NCBI GenBank assembly: GCA_028278545.1
Contig: JANQED010000115.1
Span: forward strand, 124,001 to 188,000
Direction: 5' to 3'
DNA: 64,000 nucleotides
Source of the DNA: Anaerolineales bacterium
Lineage (GTDB): Bacteria; Chloroflexota; Anaerolineae; Anaerolineales; UBA11858
Under the pieces are notes generated by a model that worked only from the letters and a program-made list of their open reading frames with translations, did no database searches and had not been told where the DNA came from. The position numbers were made by a program, and so were the translations under genes. Below, in pieces: positions 18,964 to 57,913 of this stretch (position 1 is the first letter of the stretch; the number at the start of each line of letters is the position of its first letter).

Positions 18964-19043
18964 CTGTAGGATGCCAGAAAGTTTTCGTTGGAAGCAAGAA
19001 AGAAAGACAACAGCTCGAGGCAGGGTCCTTGGGCTGTTTTTTT
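18964..19043 (+). ncRNA. Candidate ~80-nt small RNA or attenuated cspA leader
   Basis: Lies between the promoter above and a strong terminator; no ORF on this strand in that span. Confidence 0.5.
19009..19043 (+). terminator. Rho-independent terminator upstream of cold-shock gene
   Basis: AACAGCTCGAGG-CAGGGT-CCTTGGGCTGTT (12-bp stem with G-U pairs) followed by a 7-T tract. Confidence 0.75.
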
Positions 19044-19107
19044 GACCCTCCGATGGAACGATCAAGCACCTCGTTTTATATCAGATGTAGTTCAAAAGGA
19101 GAAAAAA

Positions 19108-19317
19108 ATGTCTGAACGTGTCGTCGGTACGGTCAAGTGGTTCAATGGAAGCAAAGGCTATGGCTTCATTGAGCGCGAAGGTGGCAAGGATGTCTTTGTT
19201 CACTATTCTGCTATCCAGGGCGAAGGCTTCCGCAACCTCGAAGAGGGCCAGCGAGTTGAATTCACCGTGGAAGAGGGCCACAAAGGGCCTCAGGCCGCTG
19301 AGGTAATTGCCCTGTAG
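19108..19317 (+). CDS. cspA: Cold-shock domain protein
   Basis: [46 protein letters not shown]. Confidence 0.96.
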
Positions 19318-19337
19318 GGATCATACCTTTTCAAAAC

Positions 19338-19370
19338 GAGACCTCGCCAAACGGCGAGGTCTTCTCTCTT
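19338..19370 (+). terminator. Rho-independent terminator of csp gene
   Basis: GACCTCGCC-AAAC-GGCGAGGTC then TTCTCTCTT. Confidence 0.75.
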
Positions 19371-50102: not shown

Positions 50103-51734
50103 ATGGTCACAAAAACCACGCACAACCTGAGTGAAAGGATTTCCGATCTCATTTTTTCCGTCCCGGTGCGGATTAAAATTGCCGGGATCATGGTGTTGCC
50201 GGTGGCAATTTTGGGCTTGGCCCTGAACTACTGGGTTCAGACGGGCCTCTCAGATTGGTTGTCATATCTGTTGACAGATGAACGTGTGCAGATGGCGATG
50301 GAGGCTGGCAGCCGTAGCGTGAGCCTGGTGACCGCGCTCTCTGCACTGGCGTCTATTTTGCTGACTTCAGTATTGATGTTGAGCCTGACCAAGCCCTTGC
50401 TAGAGCTGCGTCAGGTCGCTCAACGGGTTGCCGACGGAGACTTTGCTTCCCGGGCCAGGATTTGGGTGCAAGATGAGATCGGCGAGGTAGCTCGCTCGAT
50501 CAATCTTATGATCGACCGCCTGGTGAGCAGCCAGCAAAAACTTGAACACAGCAATCGACGCCTGGAGGCGATCAACCGAGTGGCTGTGGCTGTAGGCAGG
50601 GAACTGGAACTCCAGGATGTTTTGGATGCTTCGCTCAGAACGACTCTGGATGTTTTTGGGCTTGAGAGTGGTTGGGTCTATATGCGAGACCCCACGGATC
50701 CTGGAGAGGCCAGATTCCACTTGGCAAGTGCAGTCTCCCTGCCCCTTGAGCTGCGTGCAGACATAACTGATAACACCAAAGAATTGTGCGCATGCAAACG
50801 CGAGTTGTTATCACAGGATTCTGGAGTGGAAGCCCAAATTCATAACTGTGAGCGTTTGGCGCGTTTGGTTGGGGGAGATGAAGAGGAAATATTCCACATC
50901 ACCATCCCACTGGAAGCGCGCGGCCAGCGATTTGGTATGATCAACGCGGTTTGCCCTGATGATTCCAAGCCCACAGAAAATGATATTGACACGCTGACGA
51001 CCATCGGCGCGCAGGTATCGGAATTCGTCGCCAATGCCTGGCTCCATGCCAGTCTGAAGGAGAAGGAAGCCGCGCGCCAGGTGCTTTTGACGGCCCTGGT
51101 CAACGCCCAGGAAAATGAACAGGCACGTTTAGCCCGCGAATTGCACGACGATGCTGGGCAAAGTCTGACCAGTTTGTTGATCCGCTTGAAAACCCTCGAG
51201 AAACACGCCACAACCGCCGACCTGCGCGACAGCGTCACGGAGTTATGCAACACTACTTCAGAGACTATTGAGAAAGTGCGTGGTATCTCGCATCGCTTAC
51301 GACCGGCTGCGTTGGAAGAATTTGGCCTGGAGGTTGCCTTGCGGACCTTGGCCGAGGAGATGTTAGCCGATGTCGGCGCTTCGGTGGGTTGTGAATTCCA
51401 TCTGGATGGGCAGCGTTTGCCCTTCGAGATCGAAACCAATCTGTATCGTATTACCCAGGAGGGGCTTACCAACGTGGTTCGTCATGCCCAGGCCAGCAAT
51501 GTGCTGATAGAACTGGTCGTTTTGCCCCATGCCATCGGCTTGCGTGTCGAAGACGACGGGGTGGGATTTTCCCCCGAGGAGATCGTTAGTAAAGAGAATC
51601 ATCACCGTTTGGGGTTGATCAGTATGCAAGAGAGGGCTGAAATGTTGGGGGGTTCCCTGGCTGTGCAGTCTGCTCCAGGAGAAGGGACTTCGCTCCAGGT
51701 TCGGATACCTTTTGGGGTGGAGGATGCCTCCTGA
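50103..51734 (+). CDS. Sensor histidine kinase (2 TM-HAMP-GAF-HisKA_3-HATPase)
   Basis: HAMP after TM2, ENEQARLARELHDDAGQSLTSLLIRLK, EDDGVGFSPEE. Confidence 0.93.
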   Translation: MVTKTTHNLSERISDLIFSVPVRIKIAGIMVLPVAILGLALNYWVQTGLSDWLSYLLTDERVQMAMEAGSRSVSLVTALSALASILLTSVLMLSLTKPLLELRQVAQRVADGDFASRARIWVQDEIGEVARSINLMIDRLVSSQQKLEHSNRRLEAINRVAVAVGRELELQDVLDASLRTTLDVFGLESGWVYMRDPTDPGEARFHLASAVSLPLELRADITDNTKELCACKRELLSQDSGVEAQIHNCERLARLVGGDEEEIFHITIPLEARGQRFGMINAVCPDDSKPTENDIDTLTTIGAQVSEFVANAWLHASLKEKEAARQVLLTALVNAQENEQARLARELHDDAGQSLTSLLIRLKTLEKHATTADLRDSVTELCNTTSETIEKVRGISHRLRPAALEEFGLEVALRTLAEEMLADVGASVGCEFHLDGQRLPFEIETNLYRITQEGLTNVVRHAQASNVLIELVVLPHAIGLRVEDDGVGFSPEEIVSKENHHRLGLISMQERAEMLGGSLAVQSAPGEGTSLQVRIPFGVEDAS

Positions 51735-52396
51735 TGACCGAAGCGCTAATTCGCGTTGTCCTGGTGGACGACCACCAGGTATTGCGAGAGGGTTTGCGTG
51801 CCCTTCTGGATGAAGAGGGGGATATTGATGTTGTTGCAGAAGCAGGTTCGGCTGGGGAGGCTATCAAACAGGTTTTAGCCCATGATCCTGATATTGTAGT
51901 CATGGATCTGGGTTTGCCCGACAAAAGTGGTTTAGAGGCTATTAAAGAGATACGGGCTGATGACCTCCCCGTGCGGGTCATCGTGCTTTCTATGCACAGC
52001 GGCAGGGAATTGGTGATGCAGGCCCTGCAAGCTGGCAGTGATGGCTATGTGCCCAAATCCTCAGCGCACACCGATTTGTTGCAGGCCATTCGAACGGTCT
52101 ATCAGGGCAAGCGGTTCCTTCATCCAGATGCGGCTACCGCAGTGGTAGATGAACTGCTCGAAAAACGAGTCGAGGCTCAAATGCTGGAAGACCTCTCAGA
52201 GCGTGAAGAAGAGGTATTGCGGCTCATCGCAATGGGCTATACCAGCCGCGAGACCGGTGAGCAGCTATCGTTAAGCCCAAAAACTGTGGATACCTATCGC
52301 CAAAGAGCGATGGAGAAGTTGGGTCTTAATCACCGATCTGAGGTGATCCAATTCGCTTTGAAAGCGGGTTTGCTTGATGACATCACGAAGCCGTAA
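51734..52396 (+). CDS. NarL-family response regulator adjacent to rdhA1
   Basis: VVLVDDHQVLREGLRALLDEE; VVMDLGLPDKSGLEA; LuxR HTH; start overlaps kinase stop. Confidence 0.94.
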   Translation: MTEALIRVVLVDDHQVLREGLRALLDEEGDIDVVAEAGSAGEAIKQVLAHDPDIVVMDLGLPDKSGLEAIKEIRADDLPVRVIVLSMHSGRELVMQALQAGSDGYVPKSSAHTDLLQAIRTVYQGKRFLHPDAATAVVDELLEKRVEAQMLEDLSEREEEVLRLIAMGYTSRETGEQLSLSPKTVDTYRQRAMEKLGLNHRSEVIQFALKAGLLDDITKP

Positions 52397-52399
52397 GCG

Positions 52400-52467
52400 T
52401 GTCAGAAATTACCTTACAAATGCGCGGTGGTTTCCTGATAGATATGTAGTATCATCTTTGCTAGTAT
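52400..52467 (+). promoter_or_regulatory. Composite promoter of rdhA1 (upstream box + TTTGC-TAGTAT -10)
   Basis: TGTCAGAAATTACCTTACAAAT ... TTTGCTAGTAT; shared with 54208-54275 at identical spacing. Confidence 0.65.
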
Positions 52468-52500
52468 TATCTGTATGGGCATAATCGTAGAGGAGCATTA

Positions 52501-53904
52501 ATGGTGGATGAAGGTAAGAAACTCATCAGTCGCAGGGATTTTCTGCGCATTGCCGGCCTGTCGGCATCATCCATTGCCGCGGGGAATCTCCCCTCGACAT
52601 CGCATACCCCGCTGATGTCCAAAATGTCGCCTCTGAGCAAGCAGGCCGCGGGCAAGGTACGTCCATGGTGGGTGCGAGAAGTCGATCAGCCAACGGTGGA
52701 AATCGATTGGGATCAGGTTCGTCGTTTCGATGCCCGGAACACGGTACGCGGCCTGGGATTTGCGAAATATGCCGGGCAGGCCGAGCTTGATCGCTTGAAC
52801 AAACTTGATGCGGAGATTGAAAAGAAACGCATCCTCGAGGGAATCCCTGGTTACACTTTACAAGACTACGCCTTGAACGATGCCCAGGCGAGTATCGCAC
52901 GGGGGAAACGCTATTTTCTAGGCCCCCAGGAAGCACAGACGCCTGAGGAGCGCGGGGTCCCGAAGTGGACAGGCTCCCCGGCAGAGGCCGCCCGTGTTTT
53001 GAGGGCTTCTATGCGACATTTTGGCGCTGCAACAATTGGCTTCGTCCAATTGGATGAAAACACGCGCAAATTAATTTACTCTCACGACCCTGATGGGAAG
53101 AAAATCGTTTTCGAGGAAGTCGATGAGGCCTACGAAACCAGCGCTAAGCGCGTTATCCCTAACAAAGCGAAATGGGTGATCGTCTACACGGTGCAGATGT
53201 CAACGGAAACCATGAAGCGTGCTCCAACCATCCTGGCCGAACAGACCACCAAGCTTTCGTACGGTCGAGGTTTGGAGGTTCAATTCAAAACCCAGGAATT
53301 TATCCGCGCCTTGGGTTATCAGTGTTTGGGTGAAGCCTCGAGCAACGCCTTGGGAATTTCACCCGCTTTAGCTGTGATGGCTGGCTTAGGAGAACTTTCC
53401 CGACAAAACCGGGTGATCACGCCGGAATTTGGCCCCATGGTGCGCATTTTTAAGATGATCACTGATCTTCCCGTAGAACCGGATAAACCCATCGACGCTG
53501 GGATCATGGAGTTTTGCCGGCAGTGCAAAAAATGCGCTGAAGCTTGCCCTGCCAGCGCGTTAAGTCTTGACGATGAACCCAGTTGGGAAACGACGGGCGG
53601 ATGGAATAACCCAGGCCACAAAGCGTATTTCGAAGATTCAATTAAGTGCCGCACTTACATGAAAAGTGAGGCAGGCAGCAACTGCGGTATCTGTTTTGCT
53701 GTTTGTCCCTTTGCCAAAAAAGAGAAGGCCTGGCTCCATCAATGGGTTAAAGCAGGAGTTTCTACTTTTCCTGTGTTCGATGGGGTAATCCGCAGTATGG
53801 ATGATGCCTTTAGTTACGGAGCGCAAAAAAACCCGGAAGAGTGGTGGTATTTAGACTTGCCCGAATTTGGGATCGACACCGAGCAAACCACAAACGATGG
53901 ATGA
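52501..53904 (+). CDS. rdhA: Reductive dehalogenase catalytic subunit RdhA (copy 1)
   Basis: Tat signal SRRDFLRIAG; CRQCKKCAEACP and CGICFAVCP ferredoxin motifs; GWNNPGH; followed by rdhB-like gene. Confidence 0.92.
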   Translation: MVDEGKKLISRRDFLRIAGLSASSIAAGNLPSTSHTPLMSKMSPLSKQAAGKVRPWWVREVDQPTVEIDWDQVRRFDARNTVRGLGFAKYAGQAELDRLNKLDAEIEKKRILEGIPGYTLQDYALNDAQASIARGKRYFLGPQEAQTPEERGVPKWTGSPAEAARVLRASMRHFGAATIGFVQLDENTRKLIYSHDPDGKKIVFEEVDEAYETSAKRVIPNKAKWVIVYTVQMSTETMKRAPTILAEQTTKLSYGRGLEVQFKTQEFIRALGYQCLGEASSNALGISPALAVMAGLGELSRQNRVITPEFGPMVRIFKMITDLPVEPDKPIDAGIMEFCRQCKKCAEACPASALSLDDEPSWETTGGWNNPGHKAYFEDSIKCRTYMKSEAGSNCGICFAVCPFAKKEKAWLHQWVKAGVSTFPVFDGVIRSMDDAFSYGAQKNPEEWWYLDLPEFGIDTEQTTNDG

Positions 53905-54139
53905 TCGGGAAAATATAGACAACGAAGAACATATCACCATCAAACTCACCCGCAGACCCTGGTATCAGTGGATACTTTGGGGTCTCTGGCTCTTTCTGGA
54001 AGTCGTATTCTTCCAGGCAGCTGTTGCCAGCGGGAAAGAGTTCGAGCCGCGCGCTGCATTGGTTTTTTGGCTGCTCTTTGGCGTGCTTTTACTTGGGGGG
54101 ATTATTATCTGGGTCATCCGCCGACAGCGGTTGCTCTAA
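53897..54139 (+). CDS. rdhB: RdhB-like small membrane anchor
   Basis: 80-aa, two TM helices, start overlaps rdhA stop. Confidence 0.75.
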   Translation: MDDRENIDNEEHITIKLTRRPWYQWILWGLWLFLEVVFFQAAVASGKEFEPRAALVFWLLFGVLLLGGIIIWVIRRQRLL

Positions 54140-54207
54140 GCACTGAAATCAACTTATTGATATCAAATCGCAAGAAAATGGTGTGAAAACCCGCACCATT
54201 TTTTGTG

Positions 54208-54275
54208 TGTCGGAAAAAACCTTACAAATCAAAGGGCTTTTCCCGCTACAACGAAAGACTCGCATTTGCTAATAT
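54208..54275 (+). promoter_or_regulatory. Composite promoter of cytochrome/tat operon, homologous to rdhA1 promoter
   Basis: TGTCGGAAAAAACCTTACAAAT ... TTTGCTAATAT; 19/22 identity in the upstream box. Confidence 0.65.
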
Positions 54276-54344
54276 GACGGTGTAGCGTTTCGATCTTAAT
54301 CGTCACTGAGTAAGTGCCGCTGCGTGCGCACACAGGAAACCTCA

Positions 54345-56111
54345 ATGAAGCCCTTTTTTAGACGAATTCGCCGATTTTTCTATCCAGCGCCGAACGCCTC
54401 CCGCTGGCTAAGAATCCTTCCCTACGCAGTATTAACCACACTCTTTCTGATCATAATCGTCGCTGGCGCGTATGCCTGGGACTATACCAATTCTCCTGAA
54501 TTTTGCGGCTCTGCGTGTCATGGAATCCACCCTGCCGAGAACTTGACTTACCTCTCTTCTCCGCACGCTGAAGTCAAATGCGTCGAATGCCACATCGGGC
54601 GCGCCTTCATCGGCAATCAGGTCACCCGCAAAATCGGGGATTTCCGGCATGTCACGGCGGCAGTGTTTAAGGGGTATGAATATCCATTGCACGTGAAGAC
54701 CCTTCGGCCTGCTCGTGAAGTCTGTGAACTCTGCCATAACCCTGATAAGTTCTCCGATGATAGCCAGCGGGTGATTTACCATTATGGTTCCGATGATCAA
54801 AACACGCTCGAGAGAACATATTTGGTGATGAAGACGGGCGGGGGGACGGTGCGCGAGGGTCTGGGAGATGGCATTCACTGGCATATTAAAAATGAAGTCC
54901 TTTACTACGCCACCGACAAAACAGAACAGACCATCCCTTATGTGAAGGTCTTTGATGAGGAATACAGCGCGGTTTACGAATACGTCGATATCAGCGCTGA
55001 TTTTGACCCCTATGCGATTAATGAAGCTGATCTCAGAGAGATGGACTGCATCACTTGCCACAACCGCGTTACCCACACCATCCTGGTCCCCGAAGATGCA
55101 GTGGACAGCGCTATTTCTAGAGACTTGATTTCTAGTGATATCCCCGAAATTCGACGCAAAGCTGTGGAGGTTTTGAGCGCCTCGTATGAATCAACAGAAA
55201 AGGCCTTGAGGGATATTGATCTCTTGCGCAATTTCTATCGCGATAATTATGCCGATTTCCAACAAAACCATATCGATGATATTGATCAGGCCATTCGTAC
55301 CATCAAAGATATTTATCAGCAGAGCGTCTTCCCAGACCAATTAGTGGATTGGGATACCCACCCTGACAATCTTGGACACATGAACGATCCAGGGTGTTTC
55401 CGCTGCCATGACGGCAAGCACCTGGATATTGCCGGGTATGCCATTCGCCTGGAGTGCAATCTTTGCCACGCCATTCCGGTGATCACCGGGCCGGACGATC
55501 TCGAAACGCAGATCGTCATCACCCATGAAGATCAACCCAATAGCCATCACAACCCCAACTGGATCGCCCTGCACAGATATGTCTACGATGAGAACGATGA
55601 AAATGAGTATTGCAGTGATTGTCACGATGTGAGCAATTTTGGCGAGGCGGATAACACCTCATTTTGCTCGAACTCTGCTTGCCACCACCAGACCTGGGAG
55701 AGCGTCGATCTGGATTTGTTGGATAATGGCGAAGTGTTCGAAAAGATTGTCCAGCAATTGGCGCACTATCCGGGCACCCTGGAGCCAGTGGTTGCCTGGG
55801 CCGATGAACCATCCCTGGACGAAATTCACAGAGAGCAGGAGGAGATGTTGTGTGAGGACTGTCACACTGATTTTCCACCCCTGGGCCCGCCGCCTAATGA
55901 TATCTGTATCGAATGTCACGGCGAGAGCATCGCTGGTGTGGAAGAACTGACCGCCAAGTACGAACCAAACCCGCATGACTCTCACTACGGTGAAGATTAC
56001 CCTTGTTCCTCCTGTCACGTTAATTTCGGCACCCTTGCACCAATAGAATCGTGCGGTTTTTGTCATGCCATGGAGGATATCAAGCTCATTGAAGAGGCAT
56101 CCTCTAATTAG
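54345..56111 (+). CDS. Membrane-anchored multiheme cytochrome c (NapC/NirT-like N-terminus)
   Basis: One N-terminal TM; 10 CxxCH motifs plus one CxxxCH (CGSACH) and one Cx4CH (CSNSACH). Confidence 0.92.
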   Translation: MKPFFRRIRRFFYPAPNASRWLRILPYAVLTTLFLIIIVAGAYAWDYTNSPEFCGSACHGIHPAENLTYLSSPHAEVKCVECHIGRAFIGNQVTRKIGDFRHVTAAVFKGYEYPLHVKTLRPAREVCELCHNPDKFSDDSQRVIYHYGSDDQNTLERTYLVMKTGGGTVREGLGDGIHWHIKNEVLYYATDKTEQTIPYVKVFDEEYSAVYEYVDISADFDPYAINEADLREMDCITCHNRVTHTILVPEDAVDSAISRDLISSDIPEIRRKAVEVLSASYESTEKALRDIDLLRNFYRDNYADFQQNHIDDIDQAIRTIKDIYQQSVFPDQLVDWDTHPDNLGHMNDPGCFRCHDGKHLDIAGYAIRLECNLCHAIPVITGPDDLETQIVITHEDQPNSHHNPNWIALHRYVYDENDENEYCSDCHDVSNFGEADNTSFCSNSACHHQTWESVDLDLLDNGEVFEKIVQQLAHYPGTLEPVVAWADEPSLDEIHREQEEMLCEDCHTDFPPLGPPPNDICIECHGESIAGVEELTAKYEPNPHDSHYGEDYPCSSCHVNFGTLAPIESCGFCHAMEDIKLIEEASSN

Positions 56112-56122
56112 GAGAAGAAGCT

Positions 56123-56305
56123 ATGTTTGGGTTAGGCGCTACTGAATTGATCATTATTCTCGTCATTGTCATCGTTTTGTTCGGCGTTGGACGGGTGAGC
56201 AAGATCGGTGGTGAATTGGGGTCTGCCATCCGAGAGTTTCGTGCGGGTATCTCGAGTGACAAGGAAAAAGATACTGAAGAATCGACTAAAGAGGCTGTAA
56301 GCTGA
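56123..56305 (+). CDS. tatA: Twin-arginine translocase subunit TatA
   Basis: LGATELIIILVIVIVLFGVGRVSKIGGELGSAIREFR. Confidence 0.92.
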   Translation: MFGLGATELIIILVIVIVLFGVGRVSKIGGELGSAIREFRAGISSDKEKDTEESTKEAVS

Positions 56306-56356
56306 GGCGACAGTCAAATCTCTGGAAAAAATTTGACTTAGAGGCCCCATAGTGTG

Positions 56357-57127
56357 ATGACCACGGAAGATCAAACCCATTCTCGAAAGGGCATCAGCCA
56401 ACGCCGCCAGGTATTTTGGGCGCACATGGAGGAACTGCGTCAGCGTTTGCTGAAAGCGGTGATCGTGTTGGTGCTTGCTTCGGGAGTCAGCCTGATATTT
56501 GTCAAACGCGGCCTGGAATTACTGCTGCTGCCCATGGGAGAGAACCGGCCAGTGGCCTTGCATCCTACTGAGTCGATTGTGGTTTACTTCCGCATCGCCT
56601 TGATGATGGGATTGGTATTCGCCATGCCGGTGATTGTCTACCAGATCCTGGCCTTTTTCCTGCCGGCGCTGACGCGAGGTGAACGCAAGATTCTCTTGTC
56701 CTCGGTGTTTGGAATTGGGATCTTTTTCGCTCTTGGGGTCGCTTTTGCGGGCGGCGTGATGCTGCCGTTGGCGATACGCTATTTGCAGGGTTTCATGGAT
56801 GAATTGGTACAACCTACCTATTCTATCGATGGTTATATCTCCTTTGTCACCACGGTCATGATCAGCAGTGGGGTGGTGTTCGAGACCCCTTTGTTATTGG
56901 CTTTGCTGGCTCGCATGGGCTTGGTTACCTCCAGGCAATTAGCGAAGAGCAGGCGCTTTGCGCTGGTAGCCATTGCAATCATCGCCGCGGTTATCACGCC
57001 AACGCCCGATATGTTCAATATGTTATTGGTTATGGCCCCTCTGCTCATGCTGTACGAACTGGGCATTGTGATGGCCTGGTTTGCAGGGCGAGCTCGTCAA
57101 AGAGCCTTAGCTGAGGCCGGTGTATGA
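56357..57127 (+). CDS. tatC: Twin-arginine translocase subunit TatC
   Basis: FWAHMEELRQRLLKA; VYQILAFFLPALTRGERK; ITPTPDMFNMLLVMAPLLMLYELGI. Confidence 0.95.
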   Translation: MTTEDQTHSRKGISQRRQVFWAHMEELRQRLLKAVIVLVLASGVSLIFVKRGLELLLLPMGENRPVALHPTESIVVYFRIALMMGLVFAMPVIVYQILAFFLPALTRGERKILLSSVFGIGIFFALGVAFAGGVMLPLAIRYLQGFMDELVQPTYSIDGYISFVTTVMISSGVVFETPLLLALLARMGLVTSRQLAKSRRFALVAIAIIAAVITPTPDMFNMLLVMAPLLMLYELGIVMAWFAGRARQRALAEAGV

Positions 57128-57136
57128 GGTGCTGAG

Positions 57137-57349
57137 ATGAGATTCTTTAGCTTAGGCGCTGGCGAACTCTTATTGATCTTGGTTTTTGCGATTCTGGCTG
57201 TTGGTCCCAAAGAGACCATCCGTTTGGCTTCTCAGGCTCGCGATGTCATCGGGACTGTCCAGAAGGCTTTTAATGAATTGTCATCCGAAGTGACACGTAT
57301 GGCGTCAGATGTTGTCAGTTCCATCGATGACACTGAGACGAAAAATTAA
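57137..57349 (+). CDS. TatA/TatB-like protein
   Basis: FFSLGAGELLLILVFAILAVGPKETIRLASQARDVIG. Confidence 0.85.
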   Translation: MRFFSLGAGELLLILVFAILAVGPKETIRLASQARDVIGTVQKAFNELSSEVTRMASDVVSSIDDTETKN

Positions 57350-57396: not shown

Positions 57397-57807
57397 ATGA
57401 AAAAAATCTTACTAACTGCATTTTTGCTGGTGGCTGCTGTACTGCTGGCGGCCTGTGGTGGGGGTGGGCAAAGCGATGAGATCATCATGGATGAGCCTGT
57501 GCCTAAAGGGGCGGAAGACGCCTTTTTGGTAGAGCTTGAGTTCTCTGCGGAGGAGATCATCCCCGATCACATCACAATCCCTGCTGGCGAGAAGATCTAC
57601 TTTGTCGTCTTTAACAGCGATACCGAAGCTGGCGACATGAACGAAGATCACAACCTGGTTGGGCCTGATCTTGGCTTGCGTGAAATCCTGGTTGTTCCCG
57701 GCCAAACTGTGCGCCGCATCTGGGATGGTTATGATGTCCCTGGTACGTACAAAGTTGGCTGTACCATTCATCCCTGGATCACCATGGAGATCACCGTTGA
57801 GGAGTAA
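57397..57807 (+). CDS. Plastocyanin-like cupredoxin lipoprotein
   Basis: Lipobox VLLAAC; EDHN and C-TI-H-PWIT-M (Cx2Hx4M) type-1 copper ligand pattern. Confidence 0.85.
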   Translation: MKKILLTAFLLVAAVLLAACGGGGQSDEIIMDEPVPKGAEDAFLVELEFSAEEIIPDHITIPAGEKIYFVVFNSDTEAGDMNEDHNLVGPDLGLREILVVPGQTVRRIWDGYDVPGTYKVGCTIHPWITMEITVEE

Positions 57808-57913
57808 CCTTGCCTGAATGATTTTTTGTGATGAAAGGAGGCCAATAGGCAAAATTGTTTTCGGGGACACATCCCCTAAAATGTGAACGATTGCAACAGG
57901 ATCTTTATCAATT

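Follow-up and report, generated by a model that had tools for sequence, protein, structure and literature searches.

Two-component control of reductive dehalogenase (rdh) genes is known from Sulfurospirillum PceP/PceS, where an OmpR-type regulator uses the direct repeat CTATW-N17-CTATW overlapping the −35 (PMC7755780), and a 2025 survey of rdh regulators covers CRP/FNR, MarR and two-component types (PMC12090745). GacA/UvrY uses the operator TGTAAG-N6-CTTACA (PMC4682653, PMC4950607), and NreC binds a GC-rich palindrome (PMC8139620). The locus described here resembles PceP/PceS in having a two-component system beside dehalogenase genes, several units and repeated sites, most overlapping the −35 (PMC7755780); it differs in its NarL/GacA-like regulator, in an operator that combines a near-palindrome with a third half-site, and in an extended −10, and is not of the PceP type, the regulator being GerE-type and the operator different. 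The GacA/UvrY/SirA half-site TGTAAG resembles TGTMRG here, and csrB too carries an extra half-site near its palindrome, but the same six-base arms are separated there by N6 and here by N7 (TGTMRG-N7-CYKACA), and the system there acts on small RNAs through distant upstream sites. Among NCBIfam models the regulator scores best with UvrY/SirA/GacA (NF007018), yet its 165.7 bits fall well short of the cut-off of 280, and TGTAAG-N6-CTTACA is not matched, so that it falls outside that equivalog. The BarA/GacS kinase is of a different build from the kinase here. Staphylococcal NreBC is likewise a two-component system that governs an operon for anaerobic respiration through a GC-rich palindrome (PMC8139620), but responds to oxygen/nitrate through an FeS kinase, with sequence kinship to the present system known only at NarL superfamily level. 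The CprK dehalobox and MarR-type rdh regulators likewise control rdhA at the promoter (PMC12090745), but are CRP/FNR- or MarR-type proteins; the dehalobox is set apart here by regulator type, not base by base.

The window (the whole 64,000-nucleotide stretch of DNA that was analysed) contains a reductive dehalogenase cluster with the following features.

50103..51734, + strand: sensor kinase, HAMP-GAF-HisKA_3-HATPase_c (Pfam; orthologs in 13 rdh clusters aligned), the proposed first partner
51734..52396, + strand: response regulator, receiver plus GerE (Pfam), proposed DNA-binding activator, recognition helix SLSPKTVDTYRQRAMEKL
52400..52418, + strand: rdhA1 promoter site I, TGTCAGA-N5-CCTTACA, first 19 bp of the box
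52430..52440, + strand: rdhA1 promoter site II, GTTTCCTGATA, over the −35 position (block conserved in 23 promoters)
52459..52467, + strand: rdhA1 promoter extended −10, TGCTAGTAT (predicted start ~52474)
52501..53904, + strand: rdhA1, reductive dehalogenase with Tat-type signal (TIGR02486, 301.9 bits; PF13486)
53897..54139, + strand: small membrane protein, resembling RdhB in position and predicted make-up, conserved behind rdhA1
54169..54205, + strand: terminator-like hairpin and U run (folding energy −17.7 kcal/mol, z −5.4), placed between the rdhA1 unit and promoter 2
54208..54226, + strand: cytochrome/tat promoter site I, TGTCGGA-N5-CCTTACA, first 19 bp of the box
54238..54248, + strand: cytochrome/tat promoter site II, TTTTCCCGCTA with flank, over the −35 position
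54267..54275, + strand: cytochrome/tat promoter extended −10, TGCTAATAT (predicted start ~54282)
54324..56111, + strand: multihaem cytochrome c with NapC/NirT-like N-terminus, heading the second unit (Pfam, NCBIfam)
56123..57349, + strand: tatA-like, tatC (PF00902), tatA-like, order conserved in relatives
57397..57807, + strand: cupredoxin-like lipoprotein, final gene ahead of the riboswitch (PF13473)
57909..58067, + strand: cobalamin riboswitch between the second unit and rdhA2 (RF00174, 55.5 bits)
58121..59518, + strand: rdhA2, second reductive dehalogenase (TIGR02486, 254.7 bits)

Both rdhA genes match TIGR02486; the small membrane protein gave no family match, and as a partner it is RdhB-like by position only. 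Hairpins occupy the position equivalent to 54169..54205 in five relatives, and an alternative ATG at 54345 is possible for the cytochrome gene. The riboswitch ahead of rdhA2, also present in G001, G003, G004, G005 and G252, may add a second control layer on that gene; it adjoins a presumed B12-dependent enzyme, for which repression at high B12 would be an odd choice. Behind rdhA2, a 667-aa fusion of a cupredoxin/NosZ-tail-like domain with a NapH-like Fer4 membrane part (60334-62337) is conserved in several families and is a possible electron-transfer partner. Elsewhere in the window, positions 18980-19367 match the cspA thermoregulator family at 93.8 bits (gathering score 78); the match covers a cold-shock gene, whose coding part may carry the score.

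A preliminary description of this DNA had pointed to two 22-bp boxes, and both TGTCAGAAATTACCTTACAAAT (52400-52421) and TGTCGGAAAAAACCTTACAAAT (54208-54229) are exactly present, with the −10 hexamers TAGTAT (52462-52467) and TAATAT (54270-54275) each beginning 62 bp after the box start, the identical spacing that it had claimed. It had proposed a whole-genome search to define the regulon; our searches, by patterns and sequence models, returned just two exact degenerate matches in the 3.95-Mb assembly, both at this locus. A 52-column sequence model found no further full copy in the genome, the window holds no further box (and hence none for rdhA2), and the shuffled window contained no box match even at 3 mismatches. 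At lower stringency the signal dissolves: with 3 mismatches the core matched single genomes, its own included, at control level, and the loose palindrome occurs in the window at chance frequency. Across ~85,000 species genomes (~264 billion bases, records very near the window possibly excluded) the core pattern gave 19 chance-like matches, all lacking the second half or −10 and none a recognisable copy of the element; with two copies in the genome, this excludes an unrelated widespread repeat, one of the cases that had been named as fatal to the proposal.

To describe promoter anatomy we used 23 promoters (weighted to ~14 effective sequences, from at least four families), which display three conserved blocks: a near-palindrome, a third half-site and an extended −10. 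Site I, TGTCRGG-N5-CCYTACA, has 7-5-7 arms and lies inside the 22-bp box (positions 1–19); site II, TTTTCCYG(A/C)TA, covers the −35 position (box positions 31–41) and is one site I arm inverted (TAKCRGG vs TGTMRGG) with no partner arm; the −10 is of the extended type, TGnTAnnnT. Mean information is 1.44 bits/position over site I (1–19), 1.40 over site II (32–41) and ~1.05 over the extended −10, and is near zero (~0.1–0.2 bits/position) over linker 42–58 and downstream. Fourteen of 16 promoters share the same box-to-−10 register, and so do later independent ones. Conserved symmetry resides inside the box; the dyad first singled out (CGGAAAAAACC / GGCTTTTCCCG) is not the main one, and pairing of the box with TTTTCCCG in that role was rejected. 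The “GG..TTTCC” block reported after each box is real, and is the inverted half-site II, but its preceding GG is not conserved.

No −35 is conserved across the promoter set. On visual inspection with a 17-bp spacer, the −35 hexamers, both previously called poor, are so for the second promoter (TACAAC, 2/6) but not for the first (TAGATA, 4/6), which would have less need of an activator. An alternative promoter from a scan, TTGCTA-N16-CATAAT at 52458, was rejected because its −10 is not conserved. If +1 is assumed to lie 12 bp after the −10 start, the centre of site I would fall near −65 and the half-site of site II would span ~−39 to −33; operator overlap with the −35 position and absence of a conserved −35 amount to class II geometry, in the sense of sequence geometry only. 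Site II itself comes in two variants, GATA mostly in rdhA1 promoters and (G)CTA in cytochrome promoters, alike across different families, which argues that the twins are old and separately kept and do not stem from a recent duplication.

The same cluster occurs in five genus relatives (G001–G005). All five carry the box ahead of the cytochrome gene with identical −10 spacing, and the rdhA1 box is kept in G001; it is missing in G003, G004 and G005 (regulator–rdhA1 gap ~45 bp), and the G002 contig ends at the regulator/rdhA1 region. G091 also lacks the rdhA1 box, with rdhA1 ~45 bp after the regulator, so rdhA1 need not always be controlled in this way. The twin arrangement is found in G001, G290 and G252, and in G213 across two contigs.

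Conservation extends well beyond the genus. Over 300 genomes of the order, the core pattern at 1 mismatch gave 17 matches against 2 for the reversed control; those in rdh clusters of other families comprise both boxes in G290, the rdhA1 box in G131 and G171 and the cytochrome box in G091. Diverged rdhA1 boxes are found in G061 and G073, and palindromes such as TGTCGGGCTTTTCCCGACA lie between regulator and rdhA1 in G029, G054 and G149; among the genomes searched, each one whose rdhA1 ortholog reaches 54% identity or more carries some form of the box. In G171 and G131 site I is kept before rdhA1, but the −10 at position 63 is absent.

A blind scan of 399 genomes with a 76-column model (sites plus −10) listed 22 matches down to E ~1e-6, weak ones aside, 14 of them already in the model; 21 of the 22 lie in rdh clusters. 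G131, known earlier but outside the model, was matched again, and seven promoters were new, from four genomes unseen until then: two each in G213, G252 and G326, and one in G337. These precede rdhA1 or the cytochrome gene, apart from one in G326 that precedes btuF-btuC; the −10 sits at position 63 in all seven, with TGn in six. Gene order in G326 and G337 is regulator-kinase-box-rdhA1, which shows the box to be independent of the regulator gene end. The btuF-btuC case (G326:C75, L221, 1539-1775) consists of a box promoter followed by a cobalamin riboswitch and then the two genes. The exception to rdh context (G002:C258, L188, 2102-2177) is an orphan promoter of full geometry before genes for a FixH-like membrane protein and a NapH-like ferredoxin, outside any rdh cluster seen.

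We regard the adjacent pair, a HisKA_3 plus HATPase_c kinase and a receiver plus GerE regulator of the NarL/FixJ type, as the best candidate for the system acting at these sites, as the preliminary description had also suggested. The regulator retains the receiver residues Asp58, Asp12-13 and Lys108, and its helix SLSPKTVDTYRQRAMEKL is identical in genus orthologs. Recurrence of the layout in distant relatives beside the same sensor–regulator pair makes it very probable that the pair turns on the dehalogenation genes. Cysteines 229 and 249 of the kinase GAF domain are invariant in 13 orthologs, which hints at the signal through a possible redox, metal or haem site; we conjecture that the stimulus is an organohalide or redox signal. 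A weak box-like stretch at G000:C141:244063 (L060), flanked by another HisKA_3/NarL pair and by a BtuF-like gene, has 7-6-7 spacing and a different helix; it was rejected and is probably due to chance.

The same palindrome also appears in a second context. In G001 it is flanked by a paralogous HisKA_3/NarL pair and by an ArrA-type reductase gene, the paralogous regulator sharing the helix SPKT(V/I)DTYRxRxMEKL with that of the window; two further genomes have the order kinase-regulator-palindrome-TtrA-like operon, with a phosphonate-type binding protein, and in two genomes the palindrome precedes TtrA-like operons beside arsenic-type genes. This sister class resembles the AioX/ArxX/ArrX-linked systems, in which such a binding protein is paired with a kinase/regulator before a molybdenum reductase operon (PMC5908839), but its regulators are NarL-type, and TtrA-like is a name given by likeness. 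Site I stands 43–45 bp before the site II CC in the TtrA/ArrA class but 34 bp before it in rdh promoters; site II and the −10 (TATAAT or TATAGT in the sister class) are 27–29 bp apart, and 28 in the window. A one-turn shift of site I at a fixed site II/−10 distance suggests two DNA-bound units on one helix face, one of them touching polymerase; no other single observation argues as strongly as this helical-turn rule for a putative activator at site II.

Operator and helix are linked when approached from the protein side as well. Thirty regulators were picked by protein similarity alone to the TtrA-linked regulator, 28 of them readable; for the helix type KT(V/I)(D/E)TYRxRxM a palindrome (at least 12/14 positions within 300 bp after the gene) stood just after the gene in 12 of the 28, compared with 0 of 19 NarL-type regulators outside that type and 1.1% of shuffles. 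Three of the 12 positives had been met earlier via DNA and some are closely related; in the remaining 16 helix-type regulators no palindrome lay within 300 bp. Such linkage, with the recurrence of the architecture in several families, lends strong comparative support to the earlier proposal of twin composite, activator-dependent promoters under the adjacent HisKA_3/NarL pair.

We consider it highly probable that both boxes are operators of the upstream-adjacent two-component system, which would activate the rdhA1 and cytochrome/tat units. A phosphorylated dimer of the NarL/GacA-like regulator would bind TGTCRGG-N5-CCYTACA, centred ~65 bp before the start site, and a further regulator subunit would bind the inverted half-site TTTTCCYG(A/C)TA covering the −35 position; from there it may help sigma-70 RNA polymerase at the extended −10 (TGnTAnnnT) without a conserved −35. 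The predicted outcome is that two separate units are switched on, one made up of rdhA1 and the gene for its small membrane partner, the other of the cytochrome, tat and cupredoxin genes. That the boxes instead serve another regulator of this type whose gene lies elsewhere, and stand beside the present pair by happenstance, is improbable: genus genomes hold many NarL-type regulators, some of them paralogs with nearly the same helix, and G002:C258 and G210/G256 have the operator with no adjacent pair in the stretch read, but in the window genome the adjacent regulator is the sole close recognition-helix match among the NarL-type regulators read, the operator accompanies the regulator in several families, whatever the kinase/regulator order, and the linkage recurs in the sister class.

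The placement of site II over the −35 position, and the 4/6 hexamer of the first promoter, would also suit a repressor whose occupancy blocks polymerase until a signal removes it. We think this very unlikely, in that the promoters offer no conserved −35 to obstruct, the spacing of 28 bp between site II and the extended −10, fixed despite the site I shift, better fits polymerase contact, and Sulfurospirillum PceP sites overlap the −35 yet activate (PMC7755780). That fixed distance could also be read as the footprint of an alternative sigma factor at site II and the −10, with the regulator at site I only; slightly less credible again, this reading must contend with a site II that is an inverted copy of a site I arm, with a cluster containing no sigma gene and with a −10 of the ordinary extended type, which in the sister class reads TATAAT or TATAGT. 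An explanation by chance resemblance or by a dispersed repeat, which would accord with the scattered matches of the core pattern alone and with control-level own-genome counts at 3 mismatches, has a negligible probability, being already refuted by exact spacing and context kept over several families with diverged linkers and by a copy number of two.

The sister regulator class would drive TtrA/ArrA-type operons through the same code. Broader, and doubtful as yet, is an order-wide operator code in which paralogous HisKA_3/NarL systems with a near-identical helix and the same half-sites control RdhA, ArrA and TtrA-like enzymes, their promoters told apart partly by a palindrome 34 versus ~44 bp before site II; if true, the one-turn spacing would keep signals separate in cells with both systems (e.g., G001).

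The open-access literature searched yielded no published report of this operator. Two-component control of organohalide respiration is itself known; what is new is its proposed reliance on a half-site resembling that of GacA/UvrY, where the rdh regulators named in the cited sources are CRP/FNR-type, MarR-type and OmpR-type two-component proteins. For rdh clusters of a lineage represented here by genomes alone, the analysis predicts an operator, its regulator and the geometry of the promoter. Regulon membership becomes readable from sequence, as in the corrinoid-uptake promoter of one relative (G326), whose box would subject the uptake of corrinoids to the two-component system as well as to B12, and the rdh and ttr/arr spacing classes make insulation between paralogous regulators testable.
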